Shown piece after piece: positions 29,117 through 38,296 of a stretch of DNA of 38,296 nt. The DNA comes from Armatimonadota bacterium (GTDB lineage Bacteria; Armatimonadota; Armatimonadia; Armatimonadales; Capsulimonadaceae): the NCBI GenBank assembly GCA_025354405.1, contig JANXMY010000086.1, positions 1 to 38,296 on the forward strand, written 5' to 3'. The translations under genes were made by a program, and so were the position numbers. Numbering within the stretch: the stretch's first letter is position 1; each line of letters begins with the position of its first letter. The notes under the pieces were generated by a model, which saw only the letters and a list, made by a program, of their open reading frames with translations, did not search any database and had not been told where the DNA came from.

Positions 29117-31414
29117 CTATGGAGACGGTTTCAGGGTCGCGCAATCAAAGACGCCCCCTGCCGTATTTCCTGCGTGGGCCTCGAAACGAACTGTAATGCT
29201 GCTGCTGCCCGAGGCAGCCTTCAGAGATACAGGAAGGGAGTATTCGACCTCGAACAACTGCCCGGGCTTGTTATGATTTAGTACCTGCGTCGCGATCTTC
29301 TGTCCATCGACCAGTATGTCGAAAGTGCGCCCGGCATCATCCCCCCAGTAAGTCACCCCCAGGGTCATCGGGGTATCCGGCAGCGTTTTCAGGTCCCACT
29401 GAAATGCCTCACCATCCCGCCACCCACCATCCCCATACGCTCCGGTATTCGAATGAGTGGCAGCCAGATGATGCTCTTTCTCGGACGCAGCATTGTTAGG
29501 CTGGACGCTGTCCACGATGCGTGCTTCGCGTTTCAGGCGTGCCTTGCCGGCAGCCTGGATTGCCTGATCGCGGGCACTGCCGGGAGCCACAACCGACCAA
29601 TAGACGCCGTAGGGCTGGTCTATCACTTGATAGAGCGGTACGAACGTGACATTGTGGGGCTGGCCGACAGTGCGGAAAGTCAATGGGTGTCCCAGCACAG
29701 GAGTCAGCCAGGAAGAGAGGCTGAGAGAGTTCTCTCTGAGGTAACCGGTCGTTTTCTGGTCTGGCGTCAGGGGCGTCCCAGCATCCATAACCCCGGCAAG
29801 CACAAGTGGGCCAAACATAAAGGACTGTATGGACGGGTCGTCCGGCATCGGAGCAGAATGCAGGTGCATCGGGGTGGCGACATGCACCGTATCACCTTCT
29901 TTCCAGACTCGGCGGAGCGTTGCATAAGAGGCTGGAGCGGCATTGATCGCAGCGGGTTTGCCATTGACAATGACTTTGAATCCCTGTGCCCAGCCAGGGA
30001 CGCGCAGGTGCAGGGCCATCAGCGTCGGATATGGGACATGAACCACAAATGTTGAGCCTTGCTCTTCCGGGAAGCGGGTCTTTTGAACAATGCGAACACC
30101 GTATTCCGGCCATGTCACTTCGGAAGCAACGTAAAGATTCACATACAGGCCATTTTTGTCATGGAAATAAATACTGTCGTTCAGCTTGGCATAGGATTCG
30201 ATCCCGGTGCCATAGCAGCACCAGAAACTGTCTTTAGGCGTTCCCCATTGCTTTGTCTTTCCCGCGGCCAGCGGCAGATAGTAGAGCATCATTCCGGTGT
30301 CGGGGCGCTGTGCCGGCAGCAGGCCGTTGAAATAGTCGCGTTCATAAAAGTCGGCATATTTGGGGTTGCCCGTCCAGCGAATCAAATCGCGCGTGACCTT
30401 GAGAACATTGTAATTGGTGCAGTTTTCCTGATTGTCCCCGCTCAATGTATGCGCCAGCTTATCCGGCTCCCCCCAGTGCTCCCCAACATTACTGCCACCG
30501 GTGGCATAGGAGTGATGCTGCGTCAGCTGATCCCAGAAGTAGGTTGTAATCGTGCGGGAGTCCGCATCCCCTGTCAGCTCATAGCGGCGCGCCGCCCCCA
30601 GAATGACGGGAATATGAGTGTTGGCGTGGAAACCTGCCAGGTCGTCCTGACGATGGGCGAGAGGGTCCAAAAACGAAGCCTGCTCAAAGCGATGCGCTAG
30701 GGCCATGTCCGCGGGGCGATGGTTGATCCCATAGAGATCGTACAAAACGTTCGCCATGCCGCCAAACTCGGTATTCAAAACGACAGCCATTTGCGGGCTG
30801 CTCAATCGGTCCGTGCGAGCTTTAAAATAATCCGCCATGCGCTCTGCCACCTGCAGTGCCTGCCGGTTGCCGCCAAGCTGATACATGTCTACCAGCCCGG
30901 CCATGATTTTGTGAATCGTGTAATATGGGACTGGAACCGCTTTGCCGGCTTCCAGATCATCGAATTCACTGGTTGGGAACGCAGACAGGTAGCCGTCCTG
31001 GTTTAATGCCGTCTGGCACTTGGCAAGCTCGGCGACCAGGTAGTCACCACGAGCTTTCATCACCGGATCATTGCCGCCTGCATACATCAAAGCACAGGCG
31101 GACAAGTAGTGCCCGACAAAGAAACCACGCCATCCAGCCCCGGGATTTTCCCAGCCACCCAACGGCGCTCCCGGGGTAGGAAGTCCGGCATTCTTGCGAA
31201 ATGTCCAGAGCAGGGTGTCGGTGGAAAGTGAGAGCAGATACTTCCGGTTGGCCTCCCGCCGCGTCTCCATCTGTCCGGGCAGCAGGCGCACCTGACTCAG
31301 GGCAAAGGGCTGCAAGGCGGCCGGTAAAGCGGCAGAGGGAGCCGCCTTGACTTTAGCCTGAACCCCGCAAGCGGGCAGGAGTAAAAGGCCAAGCGAAAGT
31401 GCGAGATAATTCAT
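29117..31414 (-). CDS. Beta-L-arabinofuranosidase-type glycosidase (GH127/GH146-like)
   Basis: A 765-residue secreted glycoside hydrolase of the DUF1680 superfamily. A signal peptide is visible (MNYLALSLGLLLLPACGVQA, possibly lipoprotein with Cys16). The alpha/alpha-barrel contains GWRGFFVGHYLSACALMYA, YYTIHKIMAGLVDMY, FHANTHIPVILGAARRYELTGD, YATGGSNVGEHWG (near 300), ENCTNYNVLKVTRDL (near 330) and SFWCCYGTGIESYAKLNDSIY (near 400). The Glu of VGEHW and the three cysteines of ENCTNY and FWCC match the zinc-bound Glu-Cys3 site of retaining beta-L-arabinofuranosidases. The motif wording is closest to GH146. A C-terminal beta domain (about 600-765) may bind carbohydrate. It is last in a row of genes behind a LacI regulator and acts outside the cytoplasm. 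Confidence 0.87.
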   Translation of the reverse strand: MNYLALSLGLLLLPACGVQAKVKAAPSAALPAALQPFALSQVRLLPGQMETRREANRKYLLSLSTDTLLWTFRKNAGLPTPGAPLGGWENPGAGWRGFFVGHYLSACALMYAGGNDPVMKARGDYLVAELAKCQTALNQDGYLSAFPTSEFDDLEAGKAVPVPYYTIHKIMAGLVDMYQLGGNRQALQVAERMADYFKARTDRLSSPQMAVVLNTEFGGMANVLYDLYGINHRPADMALAHRFEQASFLDPLAHRQDDLAGFHANTHIPVILGAARRYELTGDADSRTITTYFWDQLTQHHSYATGGSNVGEHWGEPDKLAHTLSGDNQENCTNYNVLKVTRDLIRWTGNPKYADFYERDYFNGLLPAQRPDTGMMLYYLPLAAGKTKQWGTPKDSFWCCYGTGIESYAKLNDSIYFHDKNGLYVNLYVASEVTWPEYGVRIVQKTRFPEEQGSTFVVHVPYPTLMALHLRVPGWAQGFKVIVNGKPAAINAAPASYATLRRVWKEGDTVHVATPMHLHSAPMPDDPSIQSFMFGPLVLAGVMDAGTPLTPDQKTTGYLRENSLSLSSWLTPVLGHPLTFRTVGQPHNVTFVPLYQVIDQPYGVYWSVVAPGSARDQAIQAAGKARLKREARIVDSVQPNNAASEKEHHLAATHSNTGAYGDGGWRDGEAFQWDLKTLPDTPMTLGVTYWGDDAGRTFDILVDGQKIATQVLNHNKPGQLFEVEYSLPVSLKAASGSSSITVRFEAHAGNTAGGVFDCATLKPSP

Positions 31415-31439
31415 GAAGTCTTCTCAAACAAAACAGAGC

Positions 31440-31477
31440 GGCATAACACGCGCTGATATTTCTGCGTGTGTTATGCC
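31440..31477 (-). terminator. Long hairpin before the arabinofuranosidase gene
   Basis: GGCATAACACGCGC (31440-31453) pairs with GCGTGTGTTATGCC (31464-31477), one mismatch in 14 bp, with a 10-base loop. On the minus strand the sequence after it is T-rich (CTCTGTTTTGTTTG). It lies 26 bp upstream of the glycosidase start, so it ends the upstream transcript or attenuates the glycosidase message. Confidence 0.6.
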
Positions 31478-31507
31478 GGAGGGGGGTGAGACACGCTGCC
31501 TTTAGTG

Positions 31508-31541: not shown

Positions 31542-32258
31542 CTAGGCCTTGACGCTTTTCTTTCGAGCGATAAGGGCTATGCCACCCAGAGCCAGCAGGA
31601 CGCCCAGGCCAATTGATGAAGATGCCTCGGGAACCGCCGCAGAAGCGATGATCGCATTGGGTCCGAAATAGCCGGGAGCCTGAAAATTAATGGCGCCACC
31701 ATTTGATCGGGTGCCCGACAGTGTCGCACTGGCGTTGTACTGGTTCTGGTTGTATGTGATCCCGTTGTAGATCGTACCGGTAGCATTTTCGACAAAGCCA
31801 TCGCCAGGAGAAGTTCCGGTCGTGCCGAACAAAGTATACTTTGTGCCGGCGGTCAAAGAGACCGGCGTCACAGAGTTGTAGACAAAAACGCTGCCATTCG
31901 TATCAGCAGTCCCCACCGATCCTGCCGCAATAAGTGTGGACGCGAGCAGGGTTCCCGCTGGGTCGTACAAGCCGACCGAATGTGCGTTGGTCAAGCCGGA
32001 GCCGGCGGTGGCAGTGCCATTGAAGTTGAAGTAGCCCAAGGAGGTGACGGATTCATTCGCGGTCGGCGTGAAATCGAAACCGACGTTGCCGGTGAAGCCG
32101 TTATCTCCGGCGTTGGTGAAGGCGGTAGTCGCGCCGGTGGTATCACGCACTTTGCCGCCGTTCATCGTGTAGATGGCCTGCGCGGAAACGGACTGCGCAG
32201 CAAAGCCCAGGGCGGCCGCAGCGACGGCAAAGCCCGTGATTGTATTTAAAGTTTTCAT
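31542..32258 (-). CDS. PEP-CTERM-like surface protein
   Basis: A 238-residue secreted protein. The N-terminal signal (MKTLNTITGFAVAAAALGFAAQSVSAQA) is cleaved near residue 26. The middle is Gly/Thr/Asn-rich beta sequence of the DUF4082-like type (DFTPTANESVTSLGYFNFNG, VGLYDPAGTLLAS, TLTAGTKYTLFG-like repeats). The C-terminus has the tripartite sorting signal VPEASSSIGLGVLLALGGIALIARKK: a VPE(A/P) box, one helix and a basic end, as recognised by the exosortase/archaeosortase system. It is probably anchored to or released at the cell surface. An AGGA site precedes the ATG. It lies between a pseudopilin gene and a glycosidase, so a role in carbohydrate capture is an inference. Confidence 0.8.
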   Translation of the reverse strand: MKTLNTITGFAVAAAALGFAAQSVSAQAIYTMNGGKVRDTTGATTAFTNAGDNGFTGNVGFDFTPTANESVTSLGYFNFNGTATAGSGLTNAHSVGLYDPAGTLLASTLIAAGSVGTADTNGSVFVYNSVTPVSLTAGTKYTLFGTTGTSPGDGFVENATGTIYNGITYNQNQYNASATLSGTRSNGGAINFQAPGYFGPNAIIASAAVPEASSSIGLGVLLALGGIALIARKKSVKA

Positions 32259-33162: not shown

Positions 33163-33203
33163 GATTTATGTGACCTTTCTGTAAAAAACTTTTGACAGCG
33201 CCT

Positions 33204-33234
33204 CAGGGAGCGCTTCACCAATGGACAGATTATG
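33204..33234 (-). promoter_or_regulatory. Promoter -10 and LacI-type operator of the pseudopilin gene
   Basis: On the minus strand CATAAT (33234 to 33229) is followed nine bases later by GGTGAAGCGCTCCCTG (33219 to 33204). Its left half, GTGAAGCGCT, is identical to the palindromic operator before lacI (34300-34315). The right half is degenerate. Binding there would cover the transcription start. Confidence 0.6.
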
Positions 33235-33291
33235 AAGTTTTGAACCTTTCCCCCCCTCTGGAGATTTCCAAAGTCGAAAGCAAGCGAAAAT

Positions 33292-34290
33292 TTACACTTG
33301 CCGATCCGAGGAAGCACGAATCTCCAGTTTTGCAGTGACAACTCCCTGCTGACAGATATGATCCGGTTCCTGCATTCGCTTTTGCAGAAATTGCCAGGCT
33401 AAGGCGCACATCTCTTCCACGGGCTGAACAATAGTACTCAGCGGCGTTTCCAGATACTGCGTGTCCTCAATACCGTCGCAGCCGACCAGGGCCACTTGCT
33501 CCGGAATACGCAGGCCGAGGTCGCACAGTCCCCGATAAGCTCCCAGTGCCATATCGTCGTTATAGCAGAAAATACCGTCCGGGCAGCCAAAACGCTCGAT
33601 GTAGCTGCCGATGGTACGGCGCACCTCCGCACGCTGCTTACTGTCCGTCAAAATATATTCCGGTGCAGCACCCGCTTCCTTCATCGCTTCCAAGTAGGAA
33701 TCATGACGCGACTCACCTTCACGTTTCGCCGCCGCCGGGACGAGAAAAGCCACTCGGCGGCGGCCATTTCCCAGCAAGTGCCGCACGGCACCGCGCGCTC
33801 CAGTCGCCAGGTCAATCGTGATGTAGTCGGAGCTTTGCTCGTGATATTCTCCCATGCTGACTAGTGGCAGGTGAAAGACCGGGTTCGCTTTCAAAAAGGC
33901 CTGCACGTAAGAAGCACCCTGAAAGGCGATGATGCCGTCCACTGGCCAGCCCGAAAGTGGCGTGAGCTGCTCAGGGTCACCCGCCATTTCGCGTATGATT
34001 GTTTCATAACCACCCTGCCGCGCCTGCCGCTGCAGATGATAGATCACCTGAGCAAAAAATGGGGCATGTGCATTCGCGATCCAAAGAGCGATCACCTGGC
34101 TGCGCTGGCTCGCCAAAGTGCGGGCTGCAAAGTTGGGGCGATAGCCGAGTGTGCGGGCCGCTAGCAAGACACGCTCACGGGTCCCGGGACTAAATGCTTT
34201 CGAGCTGTTACTCAGTACGTAAGAGGCCGTCGCCTGCCCAACCCCAGCCGCAGCCGCAACATCTTTGAGCGTATTGTTTCGTTTTATCAT
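33292..34290 (-). CDS. LacI-family transcriptional repressor
   Basis: A 332-residue regulator. The N-terminal helix-turn-helix reads NTLKDVAAAAGVGQATASYVLSN (about residues 5-27) with the hinge helix NFAARTLASQRS (about 48-59). The rest is a periplasmic-binding-like sugar sensor (VIALWIANAHAPFFAQVI, DGIIAFQGA, RRRVAFLVPAA, GIFCYNDDMALGAYRGL, VALVGCDGIEDTQYLETPLSTI). The start at ATG 34290 is chosen over the longer frame because the latter runs through the operator. It is preceded by a consensus promoter and a perfect 16-bp operator, so it represses itself. The same half-operator lies before the pseudopilin gene. The ligand is probably an arabinose-containing sugar given the glycosidase downstream, but that is inference. 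Confidence 0.9.
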   Translation of the reverse strand: MIKRNNTLKDVAAAAGVGQATASYVLSNSSKAFSPGTRERVLLAARTLGYRPNFAARTLASQRSQVIALWIANAHAPFFAQVIYHLQRQARQGGYETIIREMAGDPEQLTPLSGWPVDGIIAFQGASYVQAFLKANPVFHLPLVSMGEYHEQSSDYITIDLATGARGAVRHLLGNGRRRVAFLVPAAAKREGESRHDSYLEAMKEAGAAPEYILTDSKQRAEVRRTIGSYIERFGCPDGIFCYNDDMALGAYRGLCDLGLRIPEQVALVGCDGIEDTQYLETPLSTIVQPVEEMCALAWQFLQKRMQEPDHICQQGVVTAKLEIRASSDRQV

Positions 34291-34299
34291 GTCACTTTT

Positions 34300-34315
34300 A
34301 GTGAAGCGCTTCACT
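34300..34315 (-). promoter_or_regulatory. LacI-type operator, perfect palindrome
   Basis: AGTGAAGCGCTTCACT is a 16-bp perfect palindrome with the central CG usual for LacI-family operators. It lies between the -10 box and the lacI start, covering the expected transcription start. Confidence 0.85.
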
Positions 34316-34322
34316 CTCAAGT

Positions 34323-34351
34323 ATTATAGTACAGGTCCCGCTTTTTGTCAA
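34323..34351 (-). promoter_or_regulatory. Consensus promoter of the lacI-family gene
   Basis: On the minus strand TTGACA (34351 to 34346), a 17-bp spacer and TATAAT (34328 to 34323) match the sigma-70 consensus exactly. Confidence 0.88.
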
Positions 34352-34374: not shown

Positions 34375-36822
34375 TCACTCGACGGGGGCTTCGTTCGCAC
34401 CAAGACGGTGGATATCCATGACATCGGTCAGGCGCTGGAGGCGTACGGTCATGGCCGTGATATGAGCCGTGTCGATCGCATCAAAACTGATCTGCATGAC
34501 AGCGGTGTGATTTGGGAGGGAGCGTGTGCGAATTGCCTGGATAAACGTTTTGGCTTCGCTGAAAAGTTTTCCGATGTCTTCAAGCAGGCCCAGACGATCC
34601 ACCAGCTCGATCTTGATATCAGTTGAGTAGCGCTGTGTCGGATCGCTCGGTTTCCAGTCTATTTCGATTAGGCGTTCCGGCTCCGTCTGCTGATAATGCG
34701 CGACATTGGCGCAGCCATGCCGGTGCAGCGCGATTCCCTTGCCGCGAGTCATATAACCCGTGACCTCATCGCCGGGTACGGGCTGACAACACTTGGCCCG
34801 GACAATCGCTACATCTTCCAGATCTCCCCCGACCTGCAGCTTGCCGGTGTTCGTCCCCTTGCGCTCAAACGAACGTGTATCGTCAGGAGTTGTCCCCGGA
34901 ACTAAGGCGCGCAGACGTGTCAGAACCGAGCCAACGGGGGCGTCGCCATACCCAATTGCCGCCAGCAGATCTTCCTGCGTATGCAAATTCATCTGCTCAG
35001 CGATTTTATGCAGCACTTCAGGGGACAGCAGATGCCGGGAATCCAGATGCACCCGTTCCAGTTCCTTCTGCATGATCTCCCGGCCGCGGGCGACATTTGC
35101 CCCATATCGGAGTTTGCGGAAATAGGCTTTTATTTTTGTGCGGGCATGGCTGGTTTTGGCAATTGCGAGCCAGTCCAGCGAAGGATTGGCACTCGGACGA
35201 GAAATAATCTCCACAATATCGCCGTTCTTAAAGCGATATGTGAGGGGTACGATCTTGCCGTTGACCTTGGCCCCGGCACAGTGCTGGCCCAGATCTGAGT
35301 GAATACGATAGGCGGCATCGACGGGAGTTGCCCCCAGAGGGAAATCGAGAACATCGCCCTTCGGCGTAAAGACAAAAACTTGATCCGTGAATAAGTCACC
35401 GACGATCGAGCGTAAAAACTCGCCGGGTTCTTTGGCGTCGGACTGCCAGTCGAAAAGCTGCTGCCGAAGCAGGGTCATCTTTTTGTCGAACCGCTGGTCC
35501 CCAACCGACGTTTTCCCTTTACCTTTTCCTTCTTTGTTTTGGCCCTCTTTGTACTGCCAGTGGGCGGCAATGCCAAAATCCGCCATCCTGTGCATGTCAC
35601 TGGTCCGGATCTGTATCTCCAGAGGCTCCCCGTTCGGCCCGATGACTTTGGTGTGCAGGGACTGGTATCCGTTGGACTTTGTTTTCGCGATGTAATCATC
35701 GAAGCGTCCGGGCAGCGGCATCCAGACCTGATGCACGATCCCCAGCGCGTGATAACAGTCGGCCACAGTCGGGACAATAACACGCAGGGCAATGAGATCA
35801 TAGATTTCGTCCAGCCCGAGCGTCTGCTTCTGCATCTTATTGTAGATTGAATACAGATGCTTGGGTCGGCCCTGGAACTCGGCGGTGATATTCTCTTCGG
35901 CCAAGCGCTCTTTCAGAACACTGGTCGCCATAGCGATATCTTTCTCACGCTGTGACCGGGTCTTATCTAATTGCTGCTTGAGATCACTATAGGCTTCGGG
36001 GTTCGTATATTTGAAAGCTAAATCTTCGAGTTGCCATTTGATCTGCCAGATTCCCAGACGATGTGCCAGCGGTGCGAAGATTTGGAGGGTTTCCTGGGCG
36101 ACTTTCTTCTGACGATGCTCCGGCATCGCCGAAAGTGTGCGCATGTTGTGGAGGCGGTCGGCCAGCTTGATCACCATAACGCGCAGGTCATGGGCCATCG
36201 CCAGCAAAATCTTGCGCAGGTTGGCTGCACTTTTGTTGGTCTCTCCGTGACGCTTTTTTCGGGCCAGGGCCTCCGCCGCTTCCGGAGAGGCCGGCTCAGT
36301 CGACGGCAAAGTATCGATACGTGCCCCGGGCTCGGACTCATTGCGGGCCTCGAAGTCAGCCATCTTCAGCTTGGTGACGCCGTCCACCAGATCGGCAATT
36401 TCTTCGCCGAATTCTGCCGCGATCTGTTCCCGCGAGACGCCACAATCTTCCACCACGTCATGGAGCAGACCAGCGGCCAGGGTGGCATCGTCCATTTCCA
36501 GCTCGGTCAAAATGGTAGCAACGGCCAGGGGATGCATGATGTATGGCTCCCCGGATCGGCGGGTCTGCCCTTCATGCTTTTCGGCAGCGTAAGCGTACGC
36601 ACGGCGGAGCAATGCCGCGTCGGTGCTTGGATGATACACCCGGGCCAGCGCGATCAAAGTTTCCGCCGGTCCACTGCCTAGCTCGGAGAGATTGTCCGCC
36701 GCGGGTTTGTGCGCCCGCTTCCCATACTGCGTCAAAACGCGTGTGAGCAGTGTTGCTCTTGTTTTACCCAAATCTCCAGTGACTTGTCCCAGATCCGCCT
36801 TCATACTATCATTGTGCATCAT
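34375..36822 (-). CDS. relA/spoT: Bifunctional (p)ppGpp synthetase/hydrolase RelA/SpoT
   Basis: A protein of up to 815 residues with the full long-RSH layout. HD hydrolase domain: HEGQTRRSGEPYIMHP and LLHDVVEDC (near residues 78-127) and RLHNMRT. Synthetase domain: FQGRPKHLYSIYNKM, LIALRVIV, GYQSLHTKVIGP and EIQIRTSDMHRMADFGIAAHW. TGS domain: VFVFTPKGDVLDFPLGATPVDAAY. Then a helical and zinc-finger part with AKCCQPVPGDEVTGYMTRGKGIALHRHGC, and a C-terminal ACT domain. The hydrolase motifs look intact, so it should both make and degrade the alarmone. Starts at 36822, 36819 and 36804 are possible; the last has CACAAT exactly six bases upstream. Confidence 0.95.
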   Translation of the reverse strand: MMHNDSMKADLGQVTGDLGKTRATLLTRVLTQYGKRAHKPAADNLSELGSGPAETLIALARVYHPSTDAALLRRAYAYAAEKHEGQTRRSGEPYIMHPLAVATILTELEMDDATLAAGLLHDVVEDCGVSREQIAAEFGEEIADLVDGVTKLKMADFEARNESEPGARIDTLPSTEPASPEAAEALARKKRHGETNKSAANLRKILLAMAHDLRVMVIKLADRLHNMRTLSAMPEHRQKKVAQETLQIFAPLAHRLGIWQIKWQLEDLAFKYTNPEAYSDLKQQLDKTRSQREKDIAMATSVLKERLAEENITAEFQGRPKHLYSIYNKMQKQTLGLDEIYDLIALRVIVPTVADCYHALGIVHQVWMPLPGRFDDYIAKTKSNGYQSLHTKVIGPNGEPLEIQIRTSDMHRMADFGIAAHWQYKEGQNKEGKGKGKTSVGDQRFDKKMTLLRQQLFDWQSDAKEPGEFLRSIVGDLFTDQVFVFTPKGDVLDFPLGATPVDAAYRIHSDLGQHCAGAKVNGKIVPLTYRFKNGDIVEIISRPSANPSLDWLAIAKTSHARTKIKAYFRKLRYGANVARGREIMQKELERVHLDSRHLLSPEVLHKIAEQMNLHTQEDLLAAIGYGDAPVGSVLTRLRALVPGTTPDDTRSFERKGTNTGKLQVGGDLEDVAIVRAKCCQPVPGDEVTGYMTRGKGIALHRHGCANVAHYQQTEPERLIEIDWKPSDPTQRYSTDIKIELVDRLGLLEDIGKLFSEAKTFIQAIRTRSLPNHTAVMQISFDAIDTAHITAMTVRLQRLTDVMDIHRLGANEAPVE

Positions 36823-38070: not shown

Positions 38071-38296
38071 ATGCCTCGCCACGTCTTCGGCGCGTCCCCT
38101 TGCGGACGCCGCCAATTTCCTGCCCGCGCCCCTTGTCGGGCCTTTACCCTGATCGAACTGCTTGTCGTCATCGCGATTATTTCCATCCTCGCGGCGATCC
38201 TTTTTCCGGTATTCCAAAAAGTCCGCGAAAATGCCCGCCGGACCGTCTGCACCAGCAATCTGAAGCAGCTGGGACTGGCCTGGATGATGTACGCCG
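38071..38296 (+). CDS. Pseudopilin-like protein (DUF1559-like), partial at the window end
   Basis: The frame opens at ATG 38071 and is still open at the end (75 codons). After a basic, Cys-containing leader of 28 residues ([20 protein letters not shown]...) comes the prepilin motif [20 protein letters not shown], then [20 protein letters not shown] and [11 protein letters not shown]. This is the same N-terminal block as in the pseudopilin at 32389-33162. The leader is longer than usual for a type IV prepilin, but a basic leader before the cleavage site is normal. It lies directly behind the cobalamin riboswitch and is the first gene under its control. The family's function is unknown; a surface or pilus-like role in cobamide capture is speculative. 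Confidence 0.88.

Follow-up and report, generated by a model that had tools for sequence, protein, structure and literature searches.

The window, i.e., the whole 38,296-nucleotide stretch of DNA analyzed here, is one contig (C168) of a 3.6 Mb genome that is present in 233 contigs and is 96% complete. On its minus strand it encodes a LacI-family repressor followed by a DUF1559/type IV pilin-like protein (pseudopilin), a secreted protein and a GH127 glycoside hydrolase (Table 1). The repressor scores 51.3 bits with PF00356 (cut-off 27) and 104.4 bits with PF13377 (cut-off 26.5), and it stays below the NCBIfam equivalog cut-offs for RbsR, PurR, CcpA, GalR and others, the best being RbsR with 188.1 versus 382. 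No close orthologue was found among 291 genomes of the phylum, and the best match reaches only 48% identity, so that the two candidate sites described below could not be footprinted by comparison of orthologues.

The pilin-like protein matches DUF1559 (PF07596) with 48.6 bits (cut-off 23.3) and the prepilin methylation motif with 31.9 bits (cut-off 21.2). In the genome 45 DUF1559 matches are present, but matches to the machines are few, with only 3 for secretin, 2 for prepilin peptidase and 9 for T2SSE-type ATPases (8 of them above cut-off). A second DUF1559 gene starts close to the right border of the window (38215-38295) and is cut by the end of the contig. For the secreted protein the family profiles searched gave no match above cut-off. 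In the GH127 protein both the catalytic and the middle domain are matched (376.3 and 86.8 bits), next to a remote similarity to aceric acid hydrolase (96 versus a cut-off of 950), so that another substrate specificity is conceivable. This GH127 neighbor suggests an arabinofuranoside as possible inducer of the repressor, and it is the sole basis on which the LacI protein might be linked to L-arabinose. Directly 5′ of the GH127 gene a strong inverted repeat, CGGCATAACACACGC...GCGTGTTATGCCG (31439-31478), is located in a 126-nt stretch with a fold z of -2.9; it may act as terminator or RNA element setting GH127 apart from the upstream genes.

Table 1. Positions of genes and candidate control elements in the window and, in the last three lines, of the operator variants in the C8 cluster of the same genome.
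Feature	Sequence	Position	Strand	Remark
RelA/SpoT		34375-36822	minus	5′ neighbor of lacI
lacI promoter	TTGACA-N17-TATAAT	34323-34351	minus	12/12 consensus; between RelA/SpoT stop and lacI ATG
Candidate lacI operator (autoregulation)	AGTGAAGCGCTTCACT	34300-34315	minus	perfect 16-bp palindrome
LacI-family repressor, 332 aa		33292-34290	minus	ATG start; Pfam LacI HTH, Peripla_BP_3, Peripla_BP_1 above cut-off
Possible -10 of pseudopilin gene	CATAAT	33229-33234	minus	without -35
Half-conserved candidate operator 5′ of pseudopilin	GGTGAAGCGCTCCCTG	33204-33219	minus	11/14 versus lacI operator core
DUF1559/type IV pilin-like protein (pseudopilin), 257 aa		32389-33162	minus	PF07596, PF07963, TIGR02532 above cut-off
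Secreted protein, C-terminal PEP-CTERM-like tail		31542-32258	minus	tail recognized by eye only
GH127 glycoside hydrolase		29117-31414	minus	PF07944, E 2e-112
C8 operator 5′ of amylase-like gene	CCCAATCGATTGGG	L092 8525-8538		"amylase-like" read from sequence
C8 operator 5′ of lacI	CCCAATCGCGTGGG	L092 8694-8707		asymmetric
C8 operator 5′ of pilin	CCCAATCGTTTGGG	L092 3702-3715		directly after TTGACA-17-TATACT

Candidate operators at the lacI and pilin genes

As had been described in the first-pass annotation, the consensus promoter of lacI is followed by a perfect palindrome, which lies 7 nt behind the TATAAT box and starts 25 nt 5′ of the lacI ATG at 34290. Its 14-nt core GTGAAGCGCTTCAC (34301-34314) is even and palindromic, carries a central CG and is positioned near the lacI start. 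Nowhere else in the 3.6 Mb genome is this core matched with 0 or 1 mismatch, which makes the lacI palindrome unique and local; places with up to 2 mismatches amount to 13 in all versus 16 for the reversed control.

For comparison two samples of Armatimonadota LacI loci were used, the first comprising 91 loci, i.e., the best matches to the window LacI in its own genome and in relatives, with 96 LacIs, and the second comprising 40 fresh loci with 46 LacIs. CG-centered 14-nt palindromes with at least 6/7 matching pairs were found in the 150 nt 5′ of lacI in 32/93 cases of the first sample, versus 4.7 in shuffles, and in 18/46 cases of the second sample, versus 2.3 in shuffles. In LacI proteins residue AA-20 of the HTH is linked to operator position NT-6, Arg going with G (Camas et al., PMC2978694). 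The window LacI is of the TASY type with a Tyr at recognition position 20, and its palindrome has a T at NT-6. Among the 50 LacIs of the two samples with an upstream CG-centered palindrome of at least 6/7, 28/32 of those with Arg20 have a G at NT-6 in both half-sites, whereas those with Tyr20 have a T in both in three of six (the window LacI, L131 and L313), G in one and other or mixed bases in two (Fisher p 0.003, the sequences being related). Taken together, the perfect CG-centered palindrome at the promoter, the agreement of Tyr20 with T6 and the family-wide excess of palindromes 5′ of lacI make the predicted autoregulation of LacI at its own promoter well supported, and judged by the behavior of the family it is very likely that the repressor binds over its own start.

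The spacer between lacI and the pilin gene comprises 129 bp. The pilin-side arrangement given in the first-pass annotation is found there as well: 9 nt separate the CATAAT box from GGTGAAGCGCT and CCCTG, 57 nt 5′ of the pilin ATG. The left half and the center of this site are intact and its right half keeps 4/7 positions. No recognizable -35 was found for the pilin promoter and the promoter scan gave no call there. The like geometry that had been claimed for both genes thus holds insofar as a box is followed by a site at each of them, but the spacings differ (7 versus 9 nt) and the pilin gene is without a -35. From its sequence, the pilin site is a plausible weak second operator. A second GCGCT is located 12 nt from the center of the half-site, and a weak overlapping tandem site at 33190-33219 is possible.

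Pairing of LacI and pilin genes and their operators across Armatimonadota

In the genome of the window a DUF1559 gene lies within ~450 bp of 7/12 LacI HTH hits, in five cases directly downstream and in two divergent. Similarly, in the first sample a pilin gene is found directly downstream on the same strand for 50/96 LacIs, upstream for 5 and divergent for 4, with none within 450 bp for 37; in the second sample the respective numbers are 27/46, 0, 4 and 15. As a control, other ORFs of at least 250 aa in the same loci have a pilin gene directly downstream in 10/421 and 4/169 cases. Pooled over these loci, which were not chosen at random and many of which are related, DUF1559 directly follows 77/142 LacI genes versus 14/590 other large ORFs. 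A scan of 80 loci from named genomes, overlapping with the sampled genomes, showed a pilin gene within 450 bp in 13/17 Armatimonadota loci and in one (L214) of the remaining 63. For the genes 3′ of the pilin 53 cases with 54 proteins including the window GH127 were analyzed, and among the 25 most frequent of the 69 families found are the GH123 N-terminal domain (4 members), GH42 (3), GH35 (2) and Melibiase (2), as well as unrelated genes.

Palindromes 5′ of LacI-adjacent pilin genes occur in 7/43 cases of the first sample, versus 1.3-1.6 expected, and in 0/19 cases of the second, versus 0.59 expected, so that the excess was not replicated. Of the other pilins of the window genome 1/21 has such a palindrome, and this one belongs to the C8 LacI cluster. 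A first score for operator sharing, based on weighted palindromicity and with an HTH pattern that missed many LacIs, revealed no sharing in 34 LacI-pilin pairs (Mann-Whitney p 0.74) and did not pick the site of the window pair. The later score, i.e., the similarity between palindrome-like words, was adopted after this null result, and because the score had been altered the second sample was run with thresholds unchanged. With this score shared words of at least 13 were obtained for 4/79 pairs in the first sample (0.5-0.6 expected) and for 2/47 pairs in the second (0.15 expected), the latter two being orthologues of one case of the first sample. The window pair scores 12.1, and 7/79 pairs reach 12 versus 2.7 expected. 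As a summary, adjacency and lacI palindromes were seen again in the second sample, sharing was so in part and pilin palindromes were not.

In a few unrelated loci, the C8 cluster included, a predicted operator is clearly shared between lacI and pilin. The C8 cluster of the window genome (L092:3700-8710) carries one operator with variants at the amylase-like gene, at lacI and at the DUF1559 pilin gene, and on sequence grounds it is a stronger case of a shared operator than the window locus. In L155, L295 and L298 TGTTATCGATAACA is present once 5′ of lacI and twice 5′ of a pilin gene 2 kb away, where one copy has 1 mismatch and the two are 41-43 bp apart. The operators at both genes are conserved among these three genomes, which belong to one family, and could serve as a natural footprint for examining the control of the pilin by LacI. 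In L148 a single AAACCGGTTT is located at lacI, and two copies (664-687) lie 14 bp apart directly after the promoter of the pilin gene; this is close to the 13-bp spacing of tandem operators that was discussed, with its explanation unsettled, by Ravcheev et al. (PMC4052901). In L150 ATACCGGTAT is found at lacI and pilin alike. Two further pilins of the window genome that lie beside a LacI have palindromes at their promoters, namely GATGCAACGTTGCATC 6 nt after TTGACA-17-TAAAAT (C149) and GATTTAGCGATAAATC between the promoter boxes (C58); no second copy of either was found within the stretch examined.

Proposed control of the pilin gene

From what was observed, namely the sites, the promoter and the order of the genes with the respective statistics, and from the parallel loci we consider it probable, at roughly two in three, that a local, autoregulated LacI governs the pseudopilin/GH127 cluster; the genes for the PEP-CTERM-like protein and GH127 probably belong to this unit and the pilin site may act too. 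The mechanism that we infer concerns binding, the inducer, read-through and the use of the CATAAT box. Without inducer, a LacI dimer would occupy the perfect palindrome, which overlaps the start of transcription from the strong lacI promoter, and would thereby hold lacI, plus any read-through into the pilin gene, at a low level. A dimer might also sit on the half-conserved site in the spacer, blocking the weak pilin promoter. A sugar freed from the substrate of the cluster would then lift the repression, so that enzyme and pilin would be made together. Read-through from the lacI promoter is considered as a route to the pilin since no terminator-like site was called in the spacer. There may thus be two control routes for the pilin, read-through or a second site, and the window may use both of them. 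Judged from their operators, the read-through route fits the majority of pairs in the phylum, and the second-site route fits C8, L148, L150 and L155-type loci.

A single repressor for both genes, as had been suggested in the first-pass annotation, is partly supported: to the predicted autoregulation of lacI the gene order and the analogous loci add support for control of the pilin, but in the window itself the pilin gene has a degenerate site and a weak promoter. It is a realistic possibility, if short of an even chance, that only lacI is autoregulated and that the half-site at the pilin is a chance match, the pilin being expressed by read-through from lacI or from an unrelated promoter. This would explain the degenerate right half, the missing -35 and the missing separate pilin palindrome at 6/7 in 36/43 and 19/19 pairs. 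In the whole window, moreover, 2 places with up to 3 mismatches are found versus 2.12 expected, making the pilin site unremarkable at this scale. However, only 95/20000 dinucleotide shuffles of the spacer (~0.5%) reach its best match of 11/14 and 3/20000 contain the exact 10-mer, for which the genome density predicts ~2.5e-4 occurrences in the spacer (7 places × 129 bp/3.6 Mb); a 5/6 -10 box 4-13 nt 5′ of the site is found in 1.3% of shuffles, and the asymmetric operator at the C8 lacI of the same genome shows that such sites are present elsewhere. The rival also draws on the genome-wide frequency of the half-site GTGAAGCGCT, which the first-pass annotation had expected to exceed chance: 9 hits at 8 places (the palindrome counting twice) were obtained versus 7 hits for the reversed control, and by that measure its idea would fail. 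Such a frequency measure fits a global regulon, whereas nearly 90% of LacI regulators are local (Ravcheev et al., PMC4052901), and a half-site without enrichment is what is expected of a local regulator. A genome-wide regulon of the lacI operator was accordingly rejected, as the places of the palindrome do not exceed the control, the half-site is not enriched and its 6 places outside the locus are all within long open frames. The most tempting of these matches, near a TTGACA on contig C181, falls inside a 483-aa coding sequence.

Two other explanations were weighed against the local autoregulated repressor. The half-site might form the 5′ arm of an RNA hairpin in the spacer, AGCGCTCCCTGAGGCGCT, acting as attenuator or terminator and not as operator; in the predicted fold its two arms are paired, and ~8 nt further on there is a run of T, but the fold is no better than that of shuffles (z -0.61 and 0.15) and no terminator-like site was called there, making this very unlikely. 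Least probable of all is that the 16-bp palindrome serves a different regulator, e.g., a global CcpA-like LacI, instead of the adjacent one. In favor of this, TGAAGCGCTTCA is similar to LacI-family operators in general. Against it, the palindrome adjoins lacI, Tyr20 and T6 agree, and the genome lacks any other place with 0-1 mismatch, unlike what a global regulator with this exact preference would leave.

Comparison with known systems

The local LacI sugar regulators analyzed by Ravcheev et al. (PMC4052901) resemble the window in having an HTH and a sugar-binding domain, an even, CG-centered palindrome (a central CG was found for 1173/1303 regulators), self-control (autoregulation in 72%) and a glycoside hydrolase as neighbor. 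The window differs from them in its directly downstream gene, which is a pilin-like DUF1559 gene; the main text of that study does not contain the terms pilin, secretion, Armatimonad-, Planctomyc- or Lentisph-. The operator geometry and the AA-20/NT-6 link of the LacI code (Camas et al., PMC2978694) hold for the sampled loci. The repressor of the window is however of the TASY type, and since the TVSR subgroup was the basis of the code, the AA-15/16 rules are not directly applicable. The pilin of the window shares with GspG and type IV pilins the N-terminal prepilin methylation motif (TIGR02532, PF07963) and differs from GspG in staying below the equivalog cut-off (TIGR01710, 38.7 versus 88.85 bits). 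For Rhodopirellula, which has 74 DUF1559 genes, the family was reported to be a new one of solute-binding proteins (PMC2754498). In the open-licence PMC literature the LacI-DUF1559 pairing was not found, nor were papers joining Armatimonadetes, LacI and pilin, or pseudopilin, LacI and operator, or pseudopilin, glycoside hydrolase and Lentisphaerae, or LacI and Chthonomonas calidirosea. The one paper there that brings together prepilins and the LacI family deals with a Xanthomonas response regulator.

In this phylum a genome encodes tens of DUF1559 pilin-like proteins, and as the pairing of repressor and pilin recurs across the phylum, the LacI-paired ones are probably switched on by particular sugars. 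Where a conserved lacI-pilin pair comes with cognate operators, a condition of expression that can be tested and a candidate substrate are available for each paralogue, and the pairing points to a secretion or pilus system that may be adapted anew to each sugar. In Bacteroidetes polysaccharide utilization loci of the SusC/SusD type a local regulator, a surface protein and a glycoside hydrolase adjoin each other. A further-reaching idea, which we regard as doubtful, is that the Armatimonadota DUF1559 pilins might be interchangeable, SusD-like parts of the surface or of secretion, each specific for one substrate; every polysaccharide cluster would have its own LacI sensor and its own pseudopilin, made only with the matching sugar and used by a few shared secretion or pilus machines. 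The window has the same adjoining trio as the Bacteroidetes loci, with a pilin-like protein as the surface protein and a LacI as the regulator.
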